Shown piece after piece: positions 2,859 through 34,150 of a DNA stretch of 64,000 bases (position 1 is the first letter of the stretch; every line of letters begins with the position of its first letter). Both the position numbers and the translations under genes were made by a program. This DNA is from Agromyces sp. H66 (GTDB lineage Bacteria; Actinomycetota; Actinomycetes; Actinomycetales; Microbacteriaceae): assembly GCF_004959775.1 (NCBI RefSeq), contig NZ_SJZG01000001.1, positions 558,001 through 622,000 on the forward strand, given 5' to 3'. Below the pieces are notes generated by a model, which made no database searches, was not told the origin of the DNA, and saw only the letters and a list, made by a program, of their open reading frames with translations.

Positions 2859-4013
2859 CGGGAGCCGTCCGACGTCGCTTCCCGTCGGGCCGGCCGCGGA
2901 CGCCTCGGCGCGGGCGAGTTCCGCCTCGGCCCGGGCGAGGTGTCGGCGGGCCAGGGGCCGACCGAACCAGTTCGCCTCGGCGAGCTCCCGCCGAGCCTCT
3001 CGCACGCGCACGCCGGCGGCGGTGACGAGGGCGCGCTGCTCCTTCGCCCGCTGCTCGGCGATGAGCTGCTCGGAGGTGACCTGCCGGAGCGTCTCGTGGT
3101 TGTCGGCGGCCTCCACCGCGATCCAGCTCGCGGCCACGAGCATCACGATGCTCGTGAGCCGGAACCAGAGGAGGAGCGCGATGAAGACCGCGAAGGTGGC
3201 GAGCAGCGGATTGCTGCTCGTCTCCGATACGAGGAATCCGCTGAGGAACTGCAGCACGGAGATCGCCGCGGATCCGAGCAGGGAGCCGACCCACATGCGG
3301 CGCCAGGGCATCGCCGCGCCCGACAGGAACCGGAACAGCACCGCGAGCGCGAGCGTGTCGATGACGAAGACCACGAGGACCGCGCCCGACTGCAGGAGGC
3401 CGGCCTGCCATCCTCGGTCGCCCGCGAGGCCGATCAGGTTGAGGAGCCAGCCGAAGAACGACGTCGCCACGACGGACAGCACGGTGGCGACGAGGATGAT
3501 CGTGCCGAACGCGAGCCCCGCGAGCAGATCGCGCGCCTTGAGGTAGAGGTAGGCACGGTTGTCCTTCGGGAGTCCGAAGATGCTTCGCACCGCCATCCGC
3601 GAGAGCGTGATCCACGCGATCGCGGTCCAGATCAAGCCGGCGAGCGCGACCGCGCCCGTCCAGCCGAACAGGCTCGTGCTCGTGGAGGCGATCGCGGTGA
3701 GCTCGTCGGTCGAGATCACGCCGTGCTCGCCGATGAGGCCGGGCGCGTAGGTGTTGAGGAGCAGGACGAACGCCTCGAGGGTCCTCTCGTTGCCGGTGAG
3801 CCAGATGCCGGCGACGGCGAACACCACGTAGACGGCCGCGAAGATCGCGAACAGGGCTTGGTAGCTCATGCCCGCCGACAGGAGGAACCCGTTGCGGGCG
3901 AGGAAGTGACGCCACACCCGCACGGGGAACAGCGCCAGCGTCTTGTTCGTGAGCGTGGTGACCCGTTCGATCGGCTCCTCGAGCCGGTCACGGATCCGAT
4001 GGCGGTCGCTCAC
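2856..4013 (-). CDS. YihY/BrkB family inner membrane protein
   Basis: A 385-residue polytopic membrane protein of the YihY/virulence factor BrkB family (often wrongly called ribonuclease BN). About six hydrophobic spans lie between residues 40 and 300, including the family-typical SAGMSYQALFAIFAAVY stretch and LLLWFRLTSIVMLVAA. The last 80 residues are a charged, probably cytoplasmic helix rich in Arg, Ala and Glu. Its molecular role is not established for the family. The GTG start at 4013 sits 6 nt after TAGTCT, so the gene appears leaderless and has its own promoter just beyond the sdh terminator. Confidence 0.9.
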   Translation of the reverse strand: MSDRHRIRDRLEEPIERVTTLTNKTLALFPVRVWRHFLARNGFLLSAGMSYQALFAIFAAVYVVFAVAGIWLTGNERTLEAFVLLLNTYAPGLIGEHGVISTDELTAIASTSTSLFGWTGAVALAGLIWTAIAWITLSRMAVRSIFGLPKDNRAYLYLKARDLLAGLAFGTIILVATVLSVVATSFFGWLLNLIGLAGDRGWQAGLLQSGAVLVVFVIDTLALAVLFRFLSGAAMPWRRMWVGSLLGSAAISVLQFLSGFLVSETSSNPLLATFAVFIALLLWFRLTSIVMLVAASWIAVEAADNHETLRQVTSEQLIAEQRAKEQRALVTAAGVRVREARRELAEANWFGRPLARRHLARAEAELARAEASAAGPTGSDVGRLP

Positions 4014-22048: not shown

Positions 22049-22054
22049 GTGAGC

Positions 22055-23485
22055 ATGGCCTACGAGTTCGAGCGCACGCAACGCATCGCCGTCCTCGGGG
22101 GTGGTCCGGGCGGGTACGAGGCCGCACTCGCGGGCGCGCAGCTCGGCGCCGAGGTCACCCTCGTCGAGCGGGCGGGCGTCGGCGGCTCGGCGGTGCTCAC
22201 CGACGTGGTGCCGTCGAAGTCGCTCATCGCGACCGCCGAGGCGTCGAACGCGGTCAAGGAGGCCGCCGACCTCGGCGTGCAGTTCTACGCCAGGGGCGCC
22301 GGCGACAAGGCGGTGAAGCCCGATGTCGCGATCAACCTGGCCGCCGTCAACAAGCGGCTCCTCGGACTCGCCGCCCAGCAATCGGAGGACATGCGGTCGA
22401 ACCTGATCGACGCGGGCGTGCGCCTCGTGCAGGGGGAGGGGCGGCTCGACGGCTCGAACGCCATCATCGTGTCGACGGCCAAGGGCGGCACCGACTTCGA
22501 TCGCATCGAGGCCGACACGCTCGTGCTCTCGGTCGGCGCGACCCCGCGGGTGCTGCCGACCGCCGTGCCCGACGGCGAGCGGATCCTCACGTGGAAGCAG
22601 GTGTACGACCTCCCCGAGATCCCCGAGCACCTCATCGTCGTCGGGTCGGGTGTCACGGGCGCGGAGTTCGCCTCGGCGTATCGGGCCCTCGGCGCGAAGG
22701 TCACGCTCATCTCGAGCCGCGACCAGGTGCTGCCCGGCGAGGATGCGGACGCGGCATCCGTCATCGAGAAGGTCTTCAAGCGCAACGGCATGAAGGTGAT
22801 GAGCAAGTCGCGTGCGGCGTCGGTGGTGCGCGACGGCGACTCGGTCGTGGCCACCCTCTCGGACGGCCGGGAGGTGCGCGGCAGCCACTGCCTGATGGCG
22901 GTCGGCTCGGTCCCGAACACGCGCGACATCGGCCTCGAGGAGGCCGGCGTGCAGCTGTCGGACAGCGGGCACATCCGCGTGAACCGCGTCGCGCGCACGT
23001 CGATGCCGAACATCTACGCGGCCGGCGACTGCACCACCTACGTCCCCCTCGCGTCGGTCGCGTCGATGCAGGGACGCACGGCGGTGTTCCACGCGATGGG
23101 TGACATCGTGAATCCGCCCGAGGAGCGCAACATCACCTCGAACATCTTCACCCAGCCCGAGATCGCGACCGTCGGCTGGACGCAGAAGGACATCGAGGAG
23201 GGCGTGGTGCCCGGCGTCATCTACAAGCTGCCACTCGCCTCGAACCCGCGGGCGAAGATGATGGAGATCCGTGACGGCTTCGTGAAGCTCTTCGCGTCGA
23301 ACGGCTCGGGCGCGATCATCGGCGGCGTCATCGTGGCGCCGAAGGCGTCGGAGCTCATCTTCCCGCTCGCGCTGGCGATCGAGCACCGCCTCACCGTCGA
23401 CCAGTTCGCCGAGGCGTTCCCCGTGTACCCGTCGCTCACGGGTTCGCTGACGGATGCCGCGCGCGCCATGCACATCGTGCGCTGA
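22055..23485 (+). CDS. lpdA: LpdA-like NAD(P)H-quinone dehydrogenase
   Basis: A 476-residue pyridine-nucleotide-disulfide-oxidoreductase family flavoprotein with an N-terminal FAD motif (AVLGGGPGGYEAA), an NAD(P) motif (VVGSGVTGAEFASAY) and the dimerisation domain. The place of the redox disulfide (normally GGTCLNxGCxPSK) reads GGSAVLTDVVPSK, so both cysteines are absent, and the C-terminal His-Glu pair of true lipoamide dehydrogenases is also missing (FPVYPSLTGSL). This matches the mycobacterial LpdA (Rv3303c) class, which reduces quinones. It should not be called lipoamide dehydrogenase. Confidence 0.88.
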   Translation: MAYEFERTQRIAVLGGGPGGYEAALAGAQLGAEVTLVERAGVGGSAVLTDVVPSKSLIATAEASNAVKEAADLGVQFYARGAGDKAVKPDVAINLAAVNKRLLGLAAQQSEDMRSNLIDAGVRLVQGEGRLDGSNAIIVSTAKGGTDFDRIEADTLVLSVGATPRVLPTAVPDGERILTWKQVYDLPEIPEHLIVVGSGVTGAEFASAYRALGAKVTLISSRDQVLPGEDADAASVIEKVFKRNGMKVMSKSRAASVVRDGDSVVATLSDGREVRGSHCLMAVGSVPNTRDIGLEEAGVQLSDSGHIRVNRVARTSMPNIYAAGDCTTYVPLASVASMQGRTAVFHAMGDIVNPPEERNITSNIFTQPEIATVGWTQKDIEEGVVPGVIYKLPLASNPRAKMMEIRDGFVKLFASNGSGAIIGGVIVAPKASELIFPLALAIEHRLTVDQFAEAFPVYPSLTGSLTDAARAMHIVR

Positions 23486-23576
23486 CCTCGGGGGCCTGCG
23501 CTGGGGCCGGTCGCCCGCTCGGTCGGCTTCGCCGGCCGTGCGGCGACGCGTATGACGCCGCCGCCCACGACCTGCT

Positions 23577-23755
23577 CAGAATTCAGGAACTGGCGGCTGG
23601 TGCCCGTCGCTTTCGTGCACAGAATTCAGGTACCCGCCGCGCGGAAGGCGCGGTCGCTCGCTGGAATCACCGGCTGATCACGCGCGACACGTGGTTGCGT
23701 CCTGAATAATGAACGCGGCGATCGGATGTCGCGGGGTTGCCCTCCAGAATTCTGG
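23577..23755. repeat. Nested inverted-repeat element A (CAGAATTCAGG motif)
   Basis: Four motif copies: forward at 23577-23587 and 23620-23630, reverse (CCTGAATAATG, degenerate) at 23701-23711, and the palindromic CCAGAATTCTGG at 23744-23755. Outer and inner copies can pair as two nested stems. Distances between successive copies are about 43, 80 and 44 bp, so the layout is symmetric about its centre. A second element with almost the same spacing lies 311 bp further on. Confidence 0.75.
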
Positions 23756-23887
23756 GCATCGAGTTCTCCTCCACATGGTGGGAATCGGGGAGGGCGCTCA
23801 CCGGCGGCGATTCCGACGCCCACGCGGGCGTCGACTCGTTCGATGATCCCGGAATGTCACGTCTTCCTGAGGTCCTCGATGAGTTGT

Positions 23888-24056
23888 CCAGTATTCAGGA
23901 ACCCGAGTTCCGGGGCATCCGCACGGTTGTGCAGAATTCAGGCAGGGATGCACGGAGCACGGGTTCAGCTCGCGCGAACGCTGCGGAATGACGAACACGA
24001 GGTCGGGTGCTCCTGAATTCTGCGACCGTGGGACGGCGGGCGCTCCTGAATTCTGG
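23888..24056. repeat. Nested inverted-repeat element B (CAGAATTCAGG motif)
   Basis: Four motif copies: forward at 23888-23899 (CCAGTATTCAGG) and 23932-23942, reverse at 24011-24022 (TCCTGAATTCTG) and 24044-24056 (TCCTGAATTCTGG). Offsets from the matching copies in element A are about 311, 312, 311 and 300 bp. The DNA between motifs is not obviously similar between the two elements, so the spacing and not the filler is kept. Confidence 0.75.
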
Positions 24057-24105
24057 ACGTGGGAGGTGGCGCCGCGTGCGGCGGATCCGCGCGGTGACGC
24101 GCCCG

Positions 24106-25875
24106 CTACGCGTCGTTGATGGCGAGCAGCAGGTGCCCGCTCGAGACGGTCGAGCCGGCCTCGGCGTTCACGAGGCCGATCACGCCGTCTTTATGGGCGA
24201 CGATGGGCTGCTCCATCTTCATGGCCTCGAGCACGAGCACGAGGTCGCCCTTGACGACCTTGTCGCCCTCGGCGACGGCCACCTTCACGACGGTCGCCTG
24301 CATGGGCGCCTTCACGGCGTCGCCCGTCGCGGTGTCGACCGCGTGGTGCAGGGCGCGGCGACGCGGCGCGGGGCCCGCCGTGTGGTTGCCGGATGCCCCG
24401 CCGACGAGCCGCTTCGGCAGCGTCACCTCGATGCGGCGGCCGCCCACCTCGACGACGACCCCGGTGCGGGCTGCCGGACCGCTCGTCTCGGCGATCTCGC
24501 CCGTCCACGGCTCGAGGCCGTTGTCGTACTCGGTCTCGATCCAGCGCGTGTACACCGAGAAGGGCTCGTCGCCGTCGGGCGCGAACGCCGGGTTCCGCAC
24601 GATGTCCCGGTGGAACGGCAGCACGGTCGGCAGCCCCGCGATCTCGAACTCGTCGAGCGCGCGGCGGGCCCGCTCGAGCGCATCGCGACGCGTCGAACCG
24701 GTCACGATGAGCTTCGCGAGGAGCGAGTCGAACGCGCCCGAGATCTCGTCGCCGGTGGTCACGCCGGAATCGATGCGGATGCCGGGGCCACCCGGGAAGC
24801 GCAGCTGGTGCACCGGACCGGGGGCCGGCAGGAAGCCCCGCCCCGGGTCCTCCCCGTTGATGCGGAACTCGATCGAGTGCCCCGTGGTCACGGGGTCGGG
24901 GTAGTCGAGCACGCCGCCCTCGGCGAGTCGGAACTGCTCGCGCACGAGGTCGAGGCCCGTGACCTCCTCGGAGACCGGGTGCTCGACCTGGAGTCGCGTG
25001 TTCACCTCGAGGAACGAGACCGTGCCGTCCTGGCCGACGAGGAACTCGCACGTTCCCGCGCCGACGTAGCCCACCTCGCGCAGGATCGCCTTGGACGCGT
25101 CGTAGAGCAGGCGGTTCTGCTCCTCGGTGAGGAAGGGCGCGGGCGCCTCCTCGACGAGCTTCTGGTGCCGCCGCTGCAACGAGCAGTCGCGCGTGGAGAC
25201 GACGACCACGTTGCCGTGCTCGTCGGCGAGGCACTGGGTCTCGACGTGCCGGGGCTTGTCGAGGTACTTCTCGACGAAGCACTCGCCGCGGCCGAAGGCG
25301 GCGACCGCCTCGCGGGTCGCCGAGTCGAAGAGCTCCGGCACCTCGTCGCGGGTGCGGGCGACCTTGAGGCCGCGGCCGCCGCCGCCGAAGGCGGCCTTGA
25401 TCGCCACCGGCAGGCCGTGCACGTCGACGAAGTCGAGCACCTCCGAGGCATCCGCCACCGGGTTCAGGGTGCCCGGCGCGAGCGGGGCGCCGACCTTCTC
25501 GGCGACGTGACGGGCCGAGACCTTGTCGCCGAGGCGCTCGATGGCCTCGGGGGAGGGTCCGATCCAGATGAGGCCGGCGTCGATGACGGCGCGGGCGAAG
25601 TCGGCGTTCTCGGCGAGGAAGCCGTAACCGGGGTGCACGGCGTCGGCGCCGGAGCGGCGCGCGACCGAGAGCAGCTTGTCGACCACCAGGTAGGTCTCGG
25701 CGCTCGTGGAGCCGTCGAGCGCGTACGCCTCGTCGGCGAGCTTCGCGTGCCGGGCGTCGCGGTCCTGGTCGGCGTACACCGCGACCGACCCGATCCCGGC
25801 GTCGCGGGCGGCGCGGATGACGCGTACGGCGATCTCTCCACGGTTGGCGATGAGGACCTTGGTGATGCGCGGCAT
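24106..25875 (-). CDS. accA: Acyl-CoA (acetyl/propionyl-CoA) carboxylase alpha subunit
   Basis: A 589-residue chain with biotin carboxylase and biotin carrier domains. It carboxylates its own biotin with ATP and bicarbonate. The N-terminus [18 protein letters not shown] and the ATP-grasp glycine loop ([10 protein letters not shown]) are typical, and the biotinylated Lys553 is in EAMKM, 36 residues before the end. The ATG at 25875 follows a TAGGCT box by 8 nt. It works with the beta and epsilon subunits encoded at 31.3-33.1 kb and is the substrate of BirA at 33.2 kb. Confidence 0.95.
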
Positions 25876-33241: not shown

Positions 33242-34150
33242 ATGGACCTCCCGCTGAGCCGCGCCGCGGTGCCGCGCCTGGAATTCGTCGCGAGCACCGG
33301 TTCGACCAACGACGACCTGCGCGAGGCCGCCACCGGGCCCGAGGCGGCGGCGTGGCCGCACGGATCGGTCATCGTCACCGACGACCAGACCCGCGGCCGC
33401 GGACGCATGGGGCGCACCTGGCTCGCCCCGACGGGCAAGACCCTCGCGATCTCGGTGCTTCTGCGGCCCGAGCTTCCGGGTGGGGCGTCGTTGCCGCCCG
33501 AGGCGTACGGGTGGATCCCGCTGATGGCCGGGGCCGCCATGACGGAGGCCGTTCGCCGGGCCGTCGACGCCGCGGCATCCGCGAAGGCCGATCTCGAGGA
33601 CGACGACGACACGGGCGGCGTCGAGGTCGTGCTGAAGTGGCCCAACGACGTGCTCGTCTCGGGCTACAAGATCTGCGGCATCCTCTCGGAACTGCTGCCG
33701 GTCGCCGAGCCCGTCGCTGAGCCCGTCGAAGCGGCCCCGTCGACGGGCTCCCGTCGTCAGGCTCGGGGACCGTCGGTCGTGGTGGGCGCCGGCCTCAACC
33801 TGACACTCGACGAGCACGACCTGCCGACGCTCACGTCGACCTCGCTCCTGCTCGCCACGGGCGTGCGACCCGACGCGGACGCGGTGCTCTCGGACTACCT
33901 CTCGGGCTTCCTCGGACTCGTGCGCGCGTTCGCGGAGCACGGCGGGGACGCCGAGGCGAGCGGGATCGCCGACCGGGTCGCGACCCTCTGCGGCACGCTG
34001 GGCTCCGAGGTGCGGGTGGAGCTGCCCGGCGATCGCGAGCTCATCGGCGTGGCCGAGCGCATCGACCGGGACGGTCGCCTCGTGGTGCGCGACCGGAACG
34101 GCGAGGCCCAGTCTGTCGCCGCGGGCGACGTCACGCACCTGCGGTATTAA
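33242..34150 (+). CDS. birA: Biotin-[acetyl-CoA-carboxylase] ligase, no HTH domain
   Basis: A 302-residue ligase that makes biotinyl-AMP and attaches biotin to the carboxylase alpha subunit. Motifs are TGSTNDDL, RGRGRMGRTW (biotin/ATP loop), KWPNDVL and VVVGAGLNL, plus a C-terminal SH3-like domain. It lacks the DNA-binding domain of the E. coli regulator. Between SELLPV and PSVVV it carries about 22 extra residues encoded by an in-frame REP-like inverted repeat (33713-33772). It is divergent from accD, its pathway partner. An in-frame start 42 bp upstream is possible. Confidence 0.92.
   Translation: MDLPLSRAAVPRLEFVASTGSTNDDLREAATGPEAAAWPHGSVIVTDDQTRGRGRMGRTWLAPTGKTLAISVLLRPELPGGASLPPEAYGWIPLMAGAAMTEAVRRAVDAAASAKADLEDDDDTGGVEVVLKWPNDVLVSGYKICGILSELLPVAEPVAEPVEAAPSTGSRRQARGPSVVVGAGLNLTLDEHDLPTLTSTSLLLATGVRPDADAVLSDYLSGFLGLVRAFAEHGGDAEASGIADRVATLCGTLGSEVRVELPGDRELIGVAERIDRDGRLVVRDRNGEAQSVAAGDVTHLRY
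33713..33772. repeat. REP-like inverted repeat inserted in frame in birA
   Basis: A perfect 11-bp stem GAGCCCGTCGA (33719-33729) / TCGACGGGCTC (33740-33750) with a 10-nt loop, plus a further GTCAGGCTCGGGGACC tail (33757-33772). The arms match the reverse of the CTTCGACGGGCTCAG-type dispersed repeat, and a related copy lies at 11221-11243. The 60-bp segment is a multiple of three, so the frame is kept. Confidence 0.7.
34145..34150 (+). promoter_or_regulatory. -10 box TATTAA for the PH-domain gene
   Basis: TATTAA overlaps the birA stop codon and is followed by 7 nt and ATG at 34158. It is the most AT-rich hexamer of the area. Confidence 0.5.

Follow-up and report, generated by a model that had tools for sequence, protein, structure and literature searches.

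A probable orphaned remnant of an AbiEi-EDxHD nuclease-like gene between two bipartite repeat elements in Agromyces sp. H66

In the genome of Agromyces sp. H66 we analyzed a stretch of 64,000 nucleotides (contig NZ_SJZG01000001.1, positions 558,001 to 622,000; hereafter the window), in which eight short arms are clustered within 480 bp of a gap between two convergent genes. We consider it probable, at roughly 0.7, that this cluster is an orphaned remnant in which two bipartite docking elements once flanked a nuclease-like gene, in a partnership resembling that of REPINs and RAYTs and involving an unrelated nuclease. This reading draws on the repeats, their spacing, the bracketing of related genes, the co-divergence of arms and proteins, and a predicted protein fold, from which we infer binding, dimer geometry, cleavage, the copying of elements, and the upkeep of sites.

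The eight CAGAATTCAGG-like arms form two elements inside the convergent gap, each ordered forward, forward, reverse, reverse, a layout claimed by an earlier sequence-only reading of the same DNA and confirmed here. Element A (23577..23755) consists of arms A1 (23577..23587, +) and A2 (23620..23630, +), both exact CAGAATTCAGG, followed by A3 (23701..23711, −), which reads CCTGAATAATG and has two mismatches, and A4 (23744..23754, −), which is the palindromic CCAGAATTCTGG and has one mismatch; the steps are 43, 81, and 43 bp. Element B (23889..24055) consists of B1 (23889..23899, +), with one mismatch, and three exact arms, B2 (23932..23942, +; CAGAATTCAGG), B3 (24012..24022, −), and B4 (24045..24055, −), with steps of 43, 80, and 33 bp. 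Corresponding arms of A and B are offset by 312, 312, 311, and 301 bp, and the steps and offsets read previously were right to within 1 bp. At no more than one mismatch, CAGAATTCAGG occurs at eight positions in the window, all inside these 480 bp and amounting to seven arms, the palindromic one being scored at two offsets; a dinucleotide model expects 0.25 such positions per window and 0.002 per 480 bp, which rules out a chance origin of the cluster. At three mismatches there was no excess across the window (61 seen vs. 64.5 expected). Moreover, the window, with a GC content of 70%, has nine GAATTC sites, of which six fall in the 480 bp and the others lie at 33281, 52747, and 58077, in agreement with the six GAATTC-containing copies and the isolated sites reported before.

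The gap is bounded by the end of a plus-strand gene at 23485 and that of a minus-strand gene at 24106. The former, lpd (22049..23485, +), served as anchor for orthologous loci, and we take its product to be dihydrolipoamide-dehydrogenase-like; the latter, acc (24106..25875, −), served as anchor for the gap and presumably encodes a biotin-dependent carboxylase alpha chain-like protein, both names being judged from the sequence. Orthologous lpd loci were compared in 30 of 60 Agromyces genomes, and acc was located in 10 of these 30, but not in the stretches taken for G059 and G066. Downstream of lpd, a pair of elements separated by about 1 kb and enclosing a single gene was found in G059 and G066 (arms like CACAACTCAGGA), in G015 (arms TTCACTTTTCAGGA), and in G007 (arms CAGAATTCAGGA), the lpd-acc gap measuring 1300 bp in G015 and 1270 bp in G007. 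Compared with the other copies, the G007 gene is truncated and lacks part of its nuclease-like domain. Alignment of the window with G007, a different species, starts at about 23507, shortly after lpd, and continues across element A and all four of its arms into the first part of the gene (best BLASTN piece, E 5e-5); over its whole length, element A corresponds to the lpd-proximal element there, in which the counterpart of arm A3 is also degenerate. Beyond element A, collinear in this alignment, a lost AbiEi-EDxHD nuclease-like gene has probably left an N-terminal stub (23812..23886, +); its 25 residues align with residues 1-70 of the G007 protein with p = 0.0005 (2000 shuffles). Because of the G007 alignment, the match of the stub to the G007 protein, and the position of element B next to it, the preferred reading of the window is element A, then the gene stub, then element B, the gene being otherwise gone. 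This order replaces the view that A and B are plain duplicates of a single element whose filler has drifted.

The bracketed genes belong to a protein family with a predicted AbiEi-antitoxin-like half and a predicted Vsr/EDxHD homing-endonuclease-like half, the model matching AbiEi and I-Bth0305I/Vsr; the VIA-align list consists mainly of winged-helix matches to residues 1-55. Pfam DUF559 was above cut-off and MTES_1575 below it in the G059 protein, and AbiEi_4 was below cut-off in the G007 protein; the last was below cut-off or absent in five family proteins scanned and was precomputed for many among 120 homologues listed. In the nuclease-like half, the residues E185, D212, E222, D224, H229, and D238 are conserved. 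At least one family gene was present in each of 55 of the 60 Agromyces genomes (E 1e-10), under source names such as 'very-short-patch-repair endonuclease' and 'type IV toxin-antitoxin AbiEi family antitoxin domain-containing'. No AbiEii toxin gene stands beside the family gene at the one locus of G015, whose 1300-bp lpd-acc gap holds the family gene and two elements. A further family gene in the genome of the window (G000), at C29:23372-24189 (L183/L186), was matched as two adjacent pieces and is perhaps broken; CATGAG-type arms adjoin it as inverted pairs.

Bracketing was examined more generally by asking for one 9-mer that forms an inverted pair in each flank of a family gene with equal spacing (±2), loci shorter than 3500 bases being excluded (1 of 15 in Cryobacterium and 3 of 29 in a class-wide draw). 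Among 30 Agromyces loci, 11 passed, compared with 0 of 600 dinucleotide-shuffled sequences, a control that applies to these 30 loci, 0 of 22 gene-free lpd loci, and 11 of 870 combinations of mismatched left and right flanks, these 11 probably being related loci with common motifs. In Cryobacterium 7 of 14 passed (mismatched flanks, 11 of 182), in the class-wide draw, to which Agromyces contributed three of the 26 loci, 6 of 26 (mismatched flanks, 0 of 650), and in the genome of the window 0 of 3 under the strict test; one of these last loci, L184, shows arms of 20 and 21 bp on both sides when one mismatch is allowed. In G024 and G045 the family gene adjoins lpd and passes the test with arms TTTTCAGGA and TTCTCAGGA. 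The Cryobacterium genes L188-L190 are bracketed by CCGAATTCAGG, a motif that is dispersed in this genus. For the 24 of 73 loci with both-flank motifs, motif similarity tracked protein identity (Mantel rho 0.46, p 0.0005), also among the 270 pairs below 60% identity (rho 0.43, p 0.0005), figures that are uncorrected for genus composition. Arm motif and protein co-diverge.

The same genome carries a second family of elements, whose arm, GCGGATATACGATC, stands beside the family gene on contig C8. There are 31 inverted pairs of it, spaced 52-53 bp (reversed-pattern control, 1+1), and two of them bracket the intact-looking C8 gene. In the 28 copies with a spacing of 52, 50 of 56 half-sites match fully and the other 6 differ at one position, the maximum allowed; no further paired arms appeared in a two-mismatch search. 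Outside the core of the half-site, fixed and free positions alternate. Since the centers are only weakly alike (0.414 vs. 0.373 shuffled), either the copies would be old or the center would be free. According to our own gene caller, 14 of the 31 elements lie between convergent, 13 between tandem, and 1 between divergent genes, 2 in a predicted open reading frame, and 1 at a contig edge, so that 28 are intergenic.

Exact GCGGATATACGATC pairs were detected in 13 of the 60 Agromyces genomes, and among the matches listed a family gene stands beside such an element in 7 of these 13 carriers; the list includes two of the three G068 matches, and a weak gene could go unseen in the other six. The gene lies between two elements in G018, G021, G051, G067, and G000 (where the second element has one mismatch), and in G002 and G044 it adjoins a single exact element, the G044 gene having an internal stop. 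Carriers with the gene have 0, 3, 4, 6, 6, 9, and 26 solo elements, and those without it among the matches listed have 1, 1, 1, 1, 2, and 4. The C8-type gene occupies one syntenic locus in G000, G021, G051, G067, and G044. Furthermore, several solo elements stand at orthologous places, with drifted near flanks and centers, and one element of G012, which has no flanked family gene among the matches listed, was located by its flanks alone and has a decayed core.

The motif of the window is dispersed as well. Further arrays or pairs of CAGAATTCAGG occur in its own genome on contigs C2, C3, C14, C23 (two), C28, C29 (three), and C30. An inner distance of 80-81 bp is shared by the two elements of the window, the places on C2 and C30, both C23 arrays, and two of the three on C29. 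Exact GAATTCAGG-N55-85-CCTGAATTC pairs were present in 7 of 60 Agromyces genomes; of these 22 pairs, for which N55-85 was allowed and which are thus informative on spacing, 20 have N69-71 and 2 have N59. In a scan of 84,980 species genomes, which yielded 77 stretches, 25 with GAATTCAGG pairs belong to Cryobacterium (found with N68-71 preset and so uninformative on spacing), 10 to Agromyces, and 42 to organisms outside both (one Naasia); the 42 were left unused, and several look like unrelated repeats. The filler between the arms is dissimilar among GAATTCAGG-type copies. In 16 Agromyces array entries, all 32 steps between same-strand neighbors are 21-23, 32-33, 42-43, or 53 bp, with a vector strength of 0.95 at 10.5 bp; these are chosen arrays (C23a and C28 omitted, only steps of 12-70 bp, palindromic partner matches dropped) and partly non-independent (L082 coincides with part of L127, and orthologous arrays are included), which makes the nominal p too small; tandem duplication may account for some of the 22-23 bp steps. 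The Cryobacterium copies form a sharp-edged unit of about 98 bp with unrelated flanks (e.g., L048-L090, 87% over 100 bp), which points to copying at some time, although no insertion event was caught. A binding site restricted to a single locus is ruled out by the copies elsewhere in the genome, in other Agromyces, and in Cryobacterium. The copies are mostly extragenic, and their inner spacing is mostly near 80 bp, from which some arrays depart.

Several neighboring observations were made on these copies. In Agromyces G053 (L031, L038), two copies have a filler of 59 bp instead of 69-71 and longer arms, GTGCAGAATTCAGGATGC; in Cryobacterium fucosi (L085, near 3470-3640), tandem GAATTCAGG elements, one with a center of 58 instead of 69, are followed by a G run. 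In Cryobacterium glucosi (L048 5993-7865, L078 5263-7146, L107 1096-2605) a GAATTCAGG element abuts a DUF222-HNH gene, an arrangement to which C. algoricola L098 3438-5315 is syntenic; the copies are homologous from the element edge onward. At C. algoricola L090 2529-2663 the element is followed by a short stretch resembling the end of this DUF222-HNH gene, perhaps a deletion remnant. Further repeat families, seemingly unrelated but containing GAATTCAGG inverted pairs, were seen in the Patescibacteria isolate B100T1L10 (L047, L051, L079, L095, L116) and in Acidobacteria bin132 (L071, L097, L113).

In the mechanism that we propose, each arm would be a double-stranded half-site, and an inverted pair about 80 bp apart would make up one docking element. 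Two subunits, as a dimer or in a larger assembly, may sit on the inverted half-sites, and the extra arms, placed outward by two to five helical turns on the same face as the phasing suggests, may recruit more subunits. The cognate protein would be an AbiEi-like winged-helix binder fused to a Vsr/EDxHD-like catalytic domain, with the nuclease-like domains meeting over the unconserved center. The earlier suggestion of sites for a multimeric DNA-binding protein fits the spacing, the phasing, and the matching gene family, whose AbiEi-like half would do the binding. With the gene at a fixed locus and the sites scattered mainly at gene ends, site and protein would diverge together, and the partnership may persist through the mutual dependence of sites and gene, in the way that has been argued for REPINs and RAYTs (PMC3116915, PMC8049555). 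In G000, the GAATTCAGG-type gene would have been lost and its sites orphaned; the second family, GCGGATATACGATC (31 copies), retains its gene.

A number of results weigh against this reading, in which binding, cleavage, and transposition are all steps that we infer. Only one of four relatives gave a significant match to the stub, the alignments to G059, G015, and G055 being insignificant. G012, whose 99-residue lpd piece is, at 99% identity, the closest of the 60 to the upstream gene of the window, shows neither motif nor inverted pair nor remains of the gene in its gap of 1004 bp, and no gene remnants were found in the lpd gap of G012, G020, G041, or G068. The condition under which the earlier reading would fail, loss of motif and spacing at this locus in close relatives, has a mixed outcome, G012 keeping neither motif nor gene, but G007 keeping both elements and a truncated gene. 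The inner distance differs at C14 (17 bp), C28 (31 bp), and C3 and one C29 array (130-131 bp). Strict both-flank failures comprise 19 of 30 Agromyces, 7 of 14 Cryobacterium, 20 of 26 class-wide, and 3 of 3 own-genome loci, and the uncorrected Mantel figures count here too. The difference in solo counts with and without the gene is weak (one-sided p 0.03, 13 carriers), G012, G019, G045, and G057 each keep one exact copy with no gene among the matches listed, and the orthologous solo elements were found through an exact core, so that their core conservation comes partly from data selection. The Cryobacterium arms covary before stratification by genome, a signal that is gone within genomes. Finally, the C2 GAATTCAGG locus yielded neither a target duplication nor a clean empty site; there, 30 bp in G001 and G006 replace about 193 bp with unclean edges. 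By eye, the orthologues of the C2 gap in other Agromyces genomes (L207, L211, L215) have different inverted repeats.

Among the alternatives, the arms could be the ends of a classical small transposon or miniature inverted-repeat transposable element, moved by an unrelated transposase. The discrete Cryobacterium unit of ~98 bp at unrelated loci, such as L048-L090, would suit such an origin, but the centers of the second family drift almost to random while the arms stay, a target duplication or clean empty site was not found at the one locus compared, and at the bracketed loci read (G059, G015, G007, and C8 of G000) the sole gene between elements is the AbiEi-EDxHD one, and we regard this origin as quite improbable. 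In the second family, the two-element stretch compared in one G012 alignment likewise gave no clean edges or target duplication. The sequence-only reading had proposed ends of a small mobile element or a REP-like role, which holds in part, as the copies are dispersed, mostly extragenic, and bracket a nuclease-like gene. The elements could also be operators of an AbiEi-type regulator, with the nuclease half incidental and the dispersed copies forming a regulon. AbiEi autoregulates through inverted repeats (PMC3985639), the elements adjoin the gene, and the cores look conserved; however, second-family elements lie between divergent genes in 1 of 31 cases and between convergent ones in 14, they stand on both sides of the gene, and the nuclease-like half has strongly conserved residues, which leaves this explanation unlikely.

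It was also suggested that the arms form nested RNA hairpins, and the elements might act as bidirectional terminators or REP-like 3' structures. The RNA fold of 23570-24060 beats shuffles (z −3.4), 14 of 31 second-family elements are found between convergent genes, and the arms are complementary by sequence. Despite this complementarity, the free arm positions showed no within-copy covariation in the second family (P 0.89, 0.98) or in Agromyces GAATTCAGG (P 0.54, 0.09, 0.48), nor within genomes in Cryobacterium (P 0.41, 0.44); moreover, same-strand arms are phased at about 10.5 bp. A known RNA family is ruled out for 23000-24600, where Rfam gave no match, only a sub-threshold ASdes outside the elements. 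Nested hairpins are thus disfavored, and an RNA role appears very improbable. The absent covariation, together with the mostly fixed inner spacing and the phasing, fits the earlier view that the positions of the motif matter and the filler does not.

Regarding known systems, the proposed docking elements and their gene resemble REPINs and RAYTs in several ways: pairs of conserved motifs in inverted orientation, set apart by a spacer that is less conserved, are dispersed extragenically; a nuclease gene keeps to a fixed locus and adjoins motifs of its own class; and copies are more numerous in gene-carrying genomes (PMC3116915, PMC8049555). They differ in that the protein has an AbiEi-like plus Vsr/EDxHD fold instead of being a REP-associated tyrosine transposase, the arms lack hairpin covariation, the extra arms are helically phased, and copying by the protein is here only supposed. 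By its enzyme, and as regards hairpin pairing, the system falls outside REPIN/RAYT; it would nonetheless work in the same way. With AbiE type IV toxin-antitoxin systems it would share a DNA-binding half of predicted AbiEi fold and the binding of inverted half-sites with a spacer, as AbiEi does (PMC3985639), but no toxin gene stands beside the family gene at the one fully read gap (G015), a nuclease-like domain is added, and sites are spread over the genome and flank the gene on either side. The predicted fold of the catalytic domain recalls the EDxHD homing endonuclease I-Bth0305I and Vsr, the former acting as a dimer on a long target (PMC3943268), as is proposed here; the gene, however, does not interrupt a site but lies between two complete ones, and homing is hypothetical. 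The C-terminal half matches the Pfam families of the DUF559/MTES_1575 Vsr-like restriction endonucleases, for which the consulted part of the source does not mention a dispersed repeat partner (PMC3710099). No description of this protein-site pairing was found in the open-licence PubMed Central literature (bioRxiv being outside the scope), and the earlier statement that no named family is recognized stands to that extent.

In brief, we tentatively propose, at somewhat less than even odds, that the Actinomycetes hold a second, independently evolved class of gene plus dispersed sites, in which vertically inherited AbiEi-EDxHD proteins at fixed loci and long-kept bipartite sites at gene ends would co-diverge into many specificities, and gene loss would leave orphaned, decaying sites, as in the window. 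A comparable partnership of a gene with scattered sites is known with an unrelated enzyme, and the kind described here is little known. AbiEi/DUF559 proteins are common in Agromyces, and no assigned function was met in the sources examined; pairing with dispersed sites would give each protein a testable target sequence. Such a class would moreover yield a range of proteins whose long DNA specificities are natural and distinct from one another, and would offer an independent comparison for why domesticated nuclease genes and short repeats persist together.
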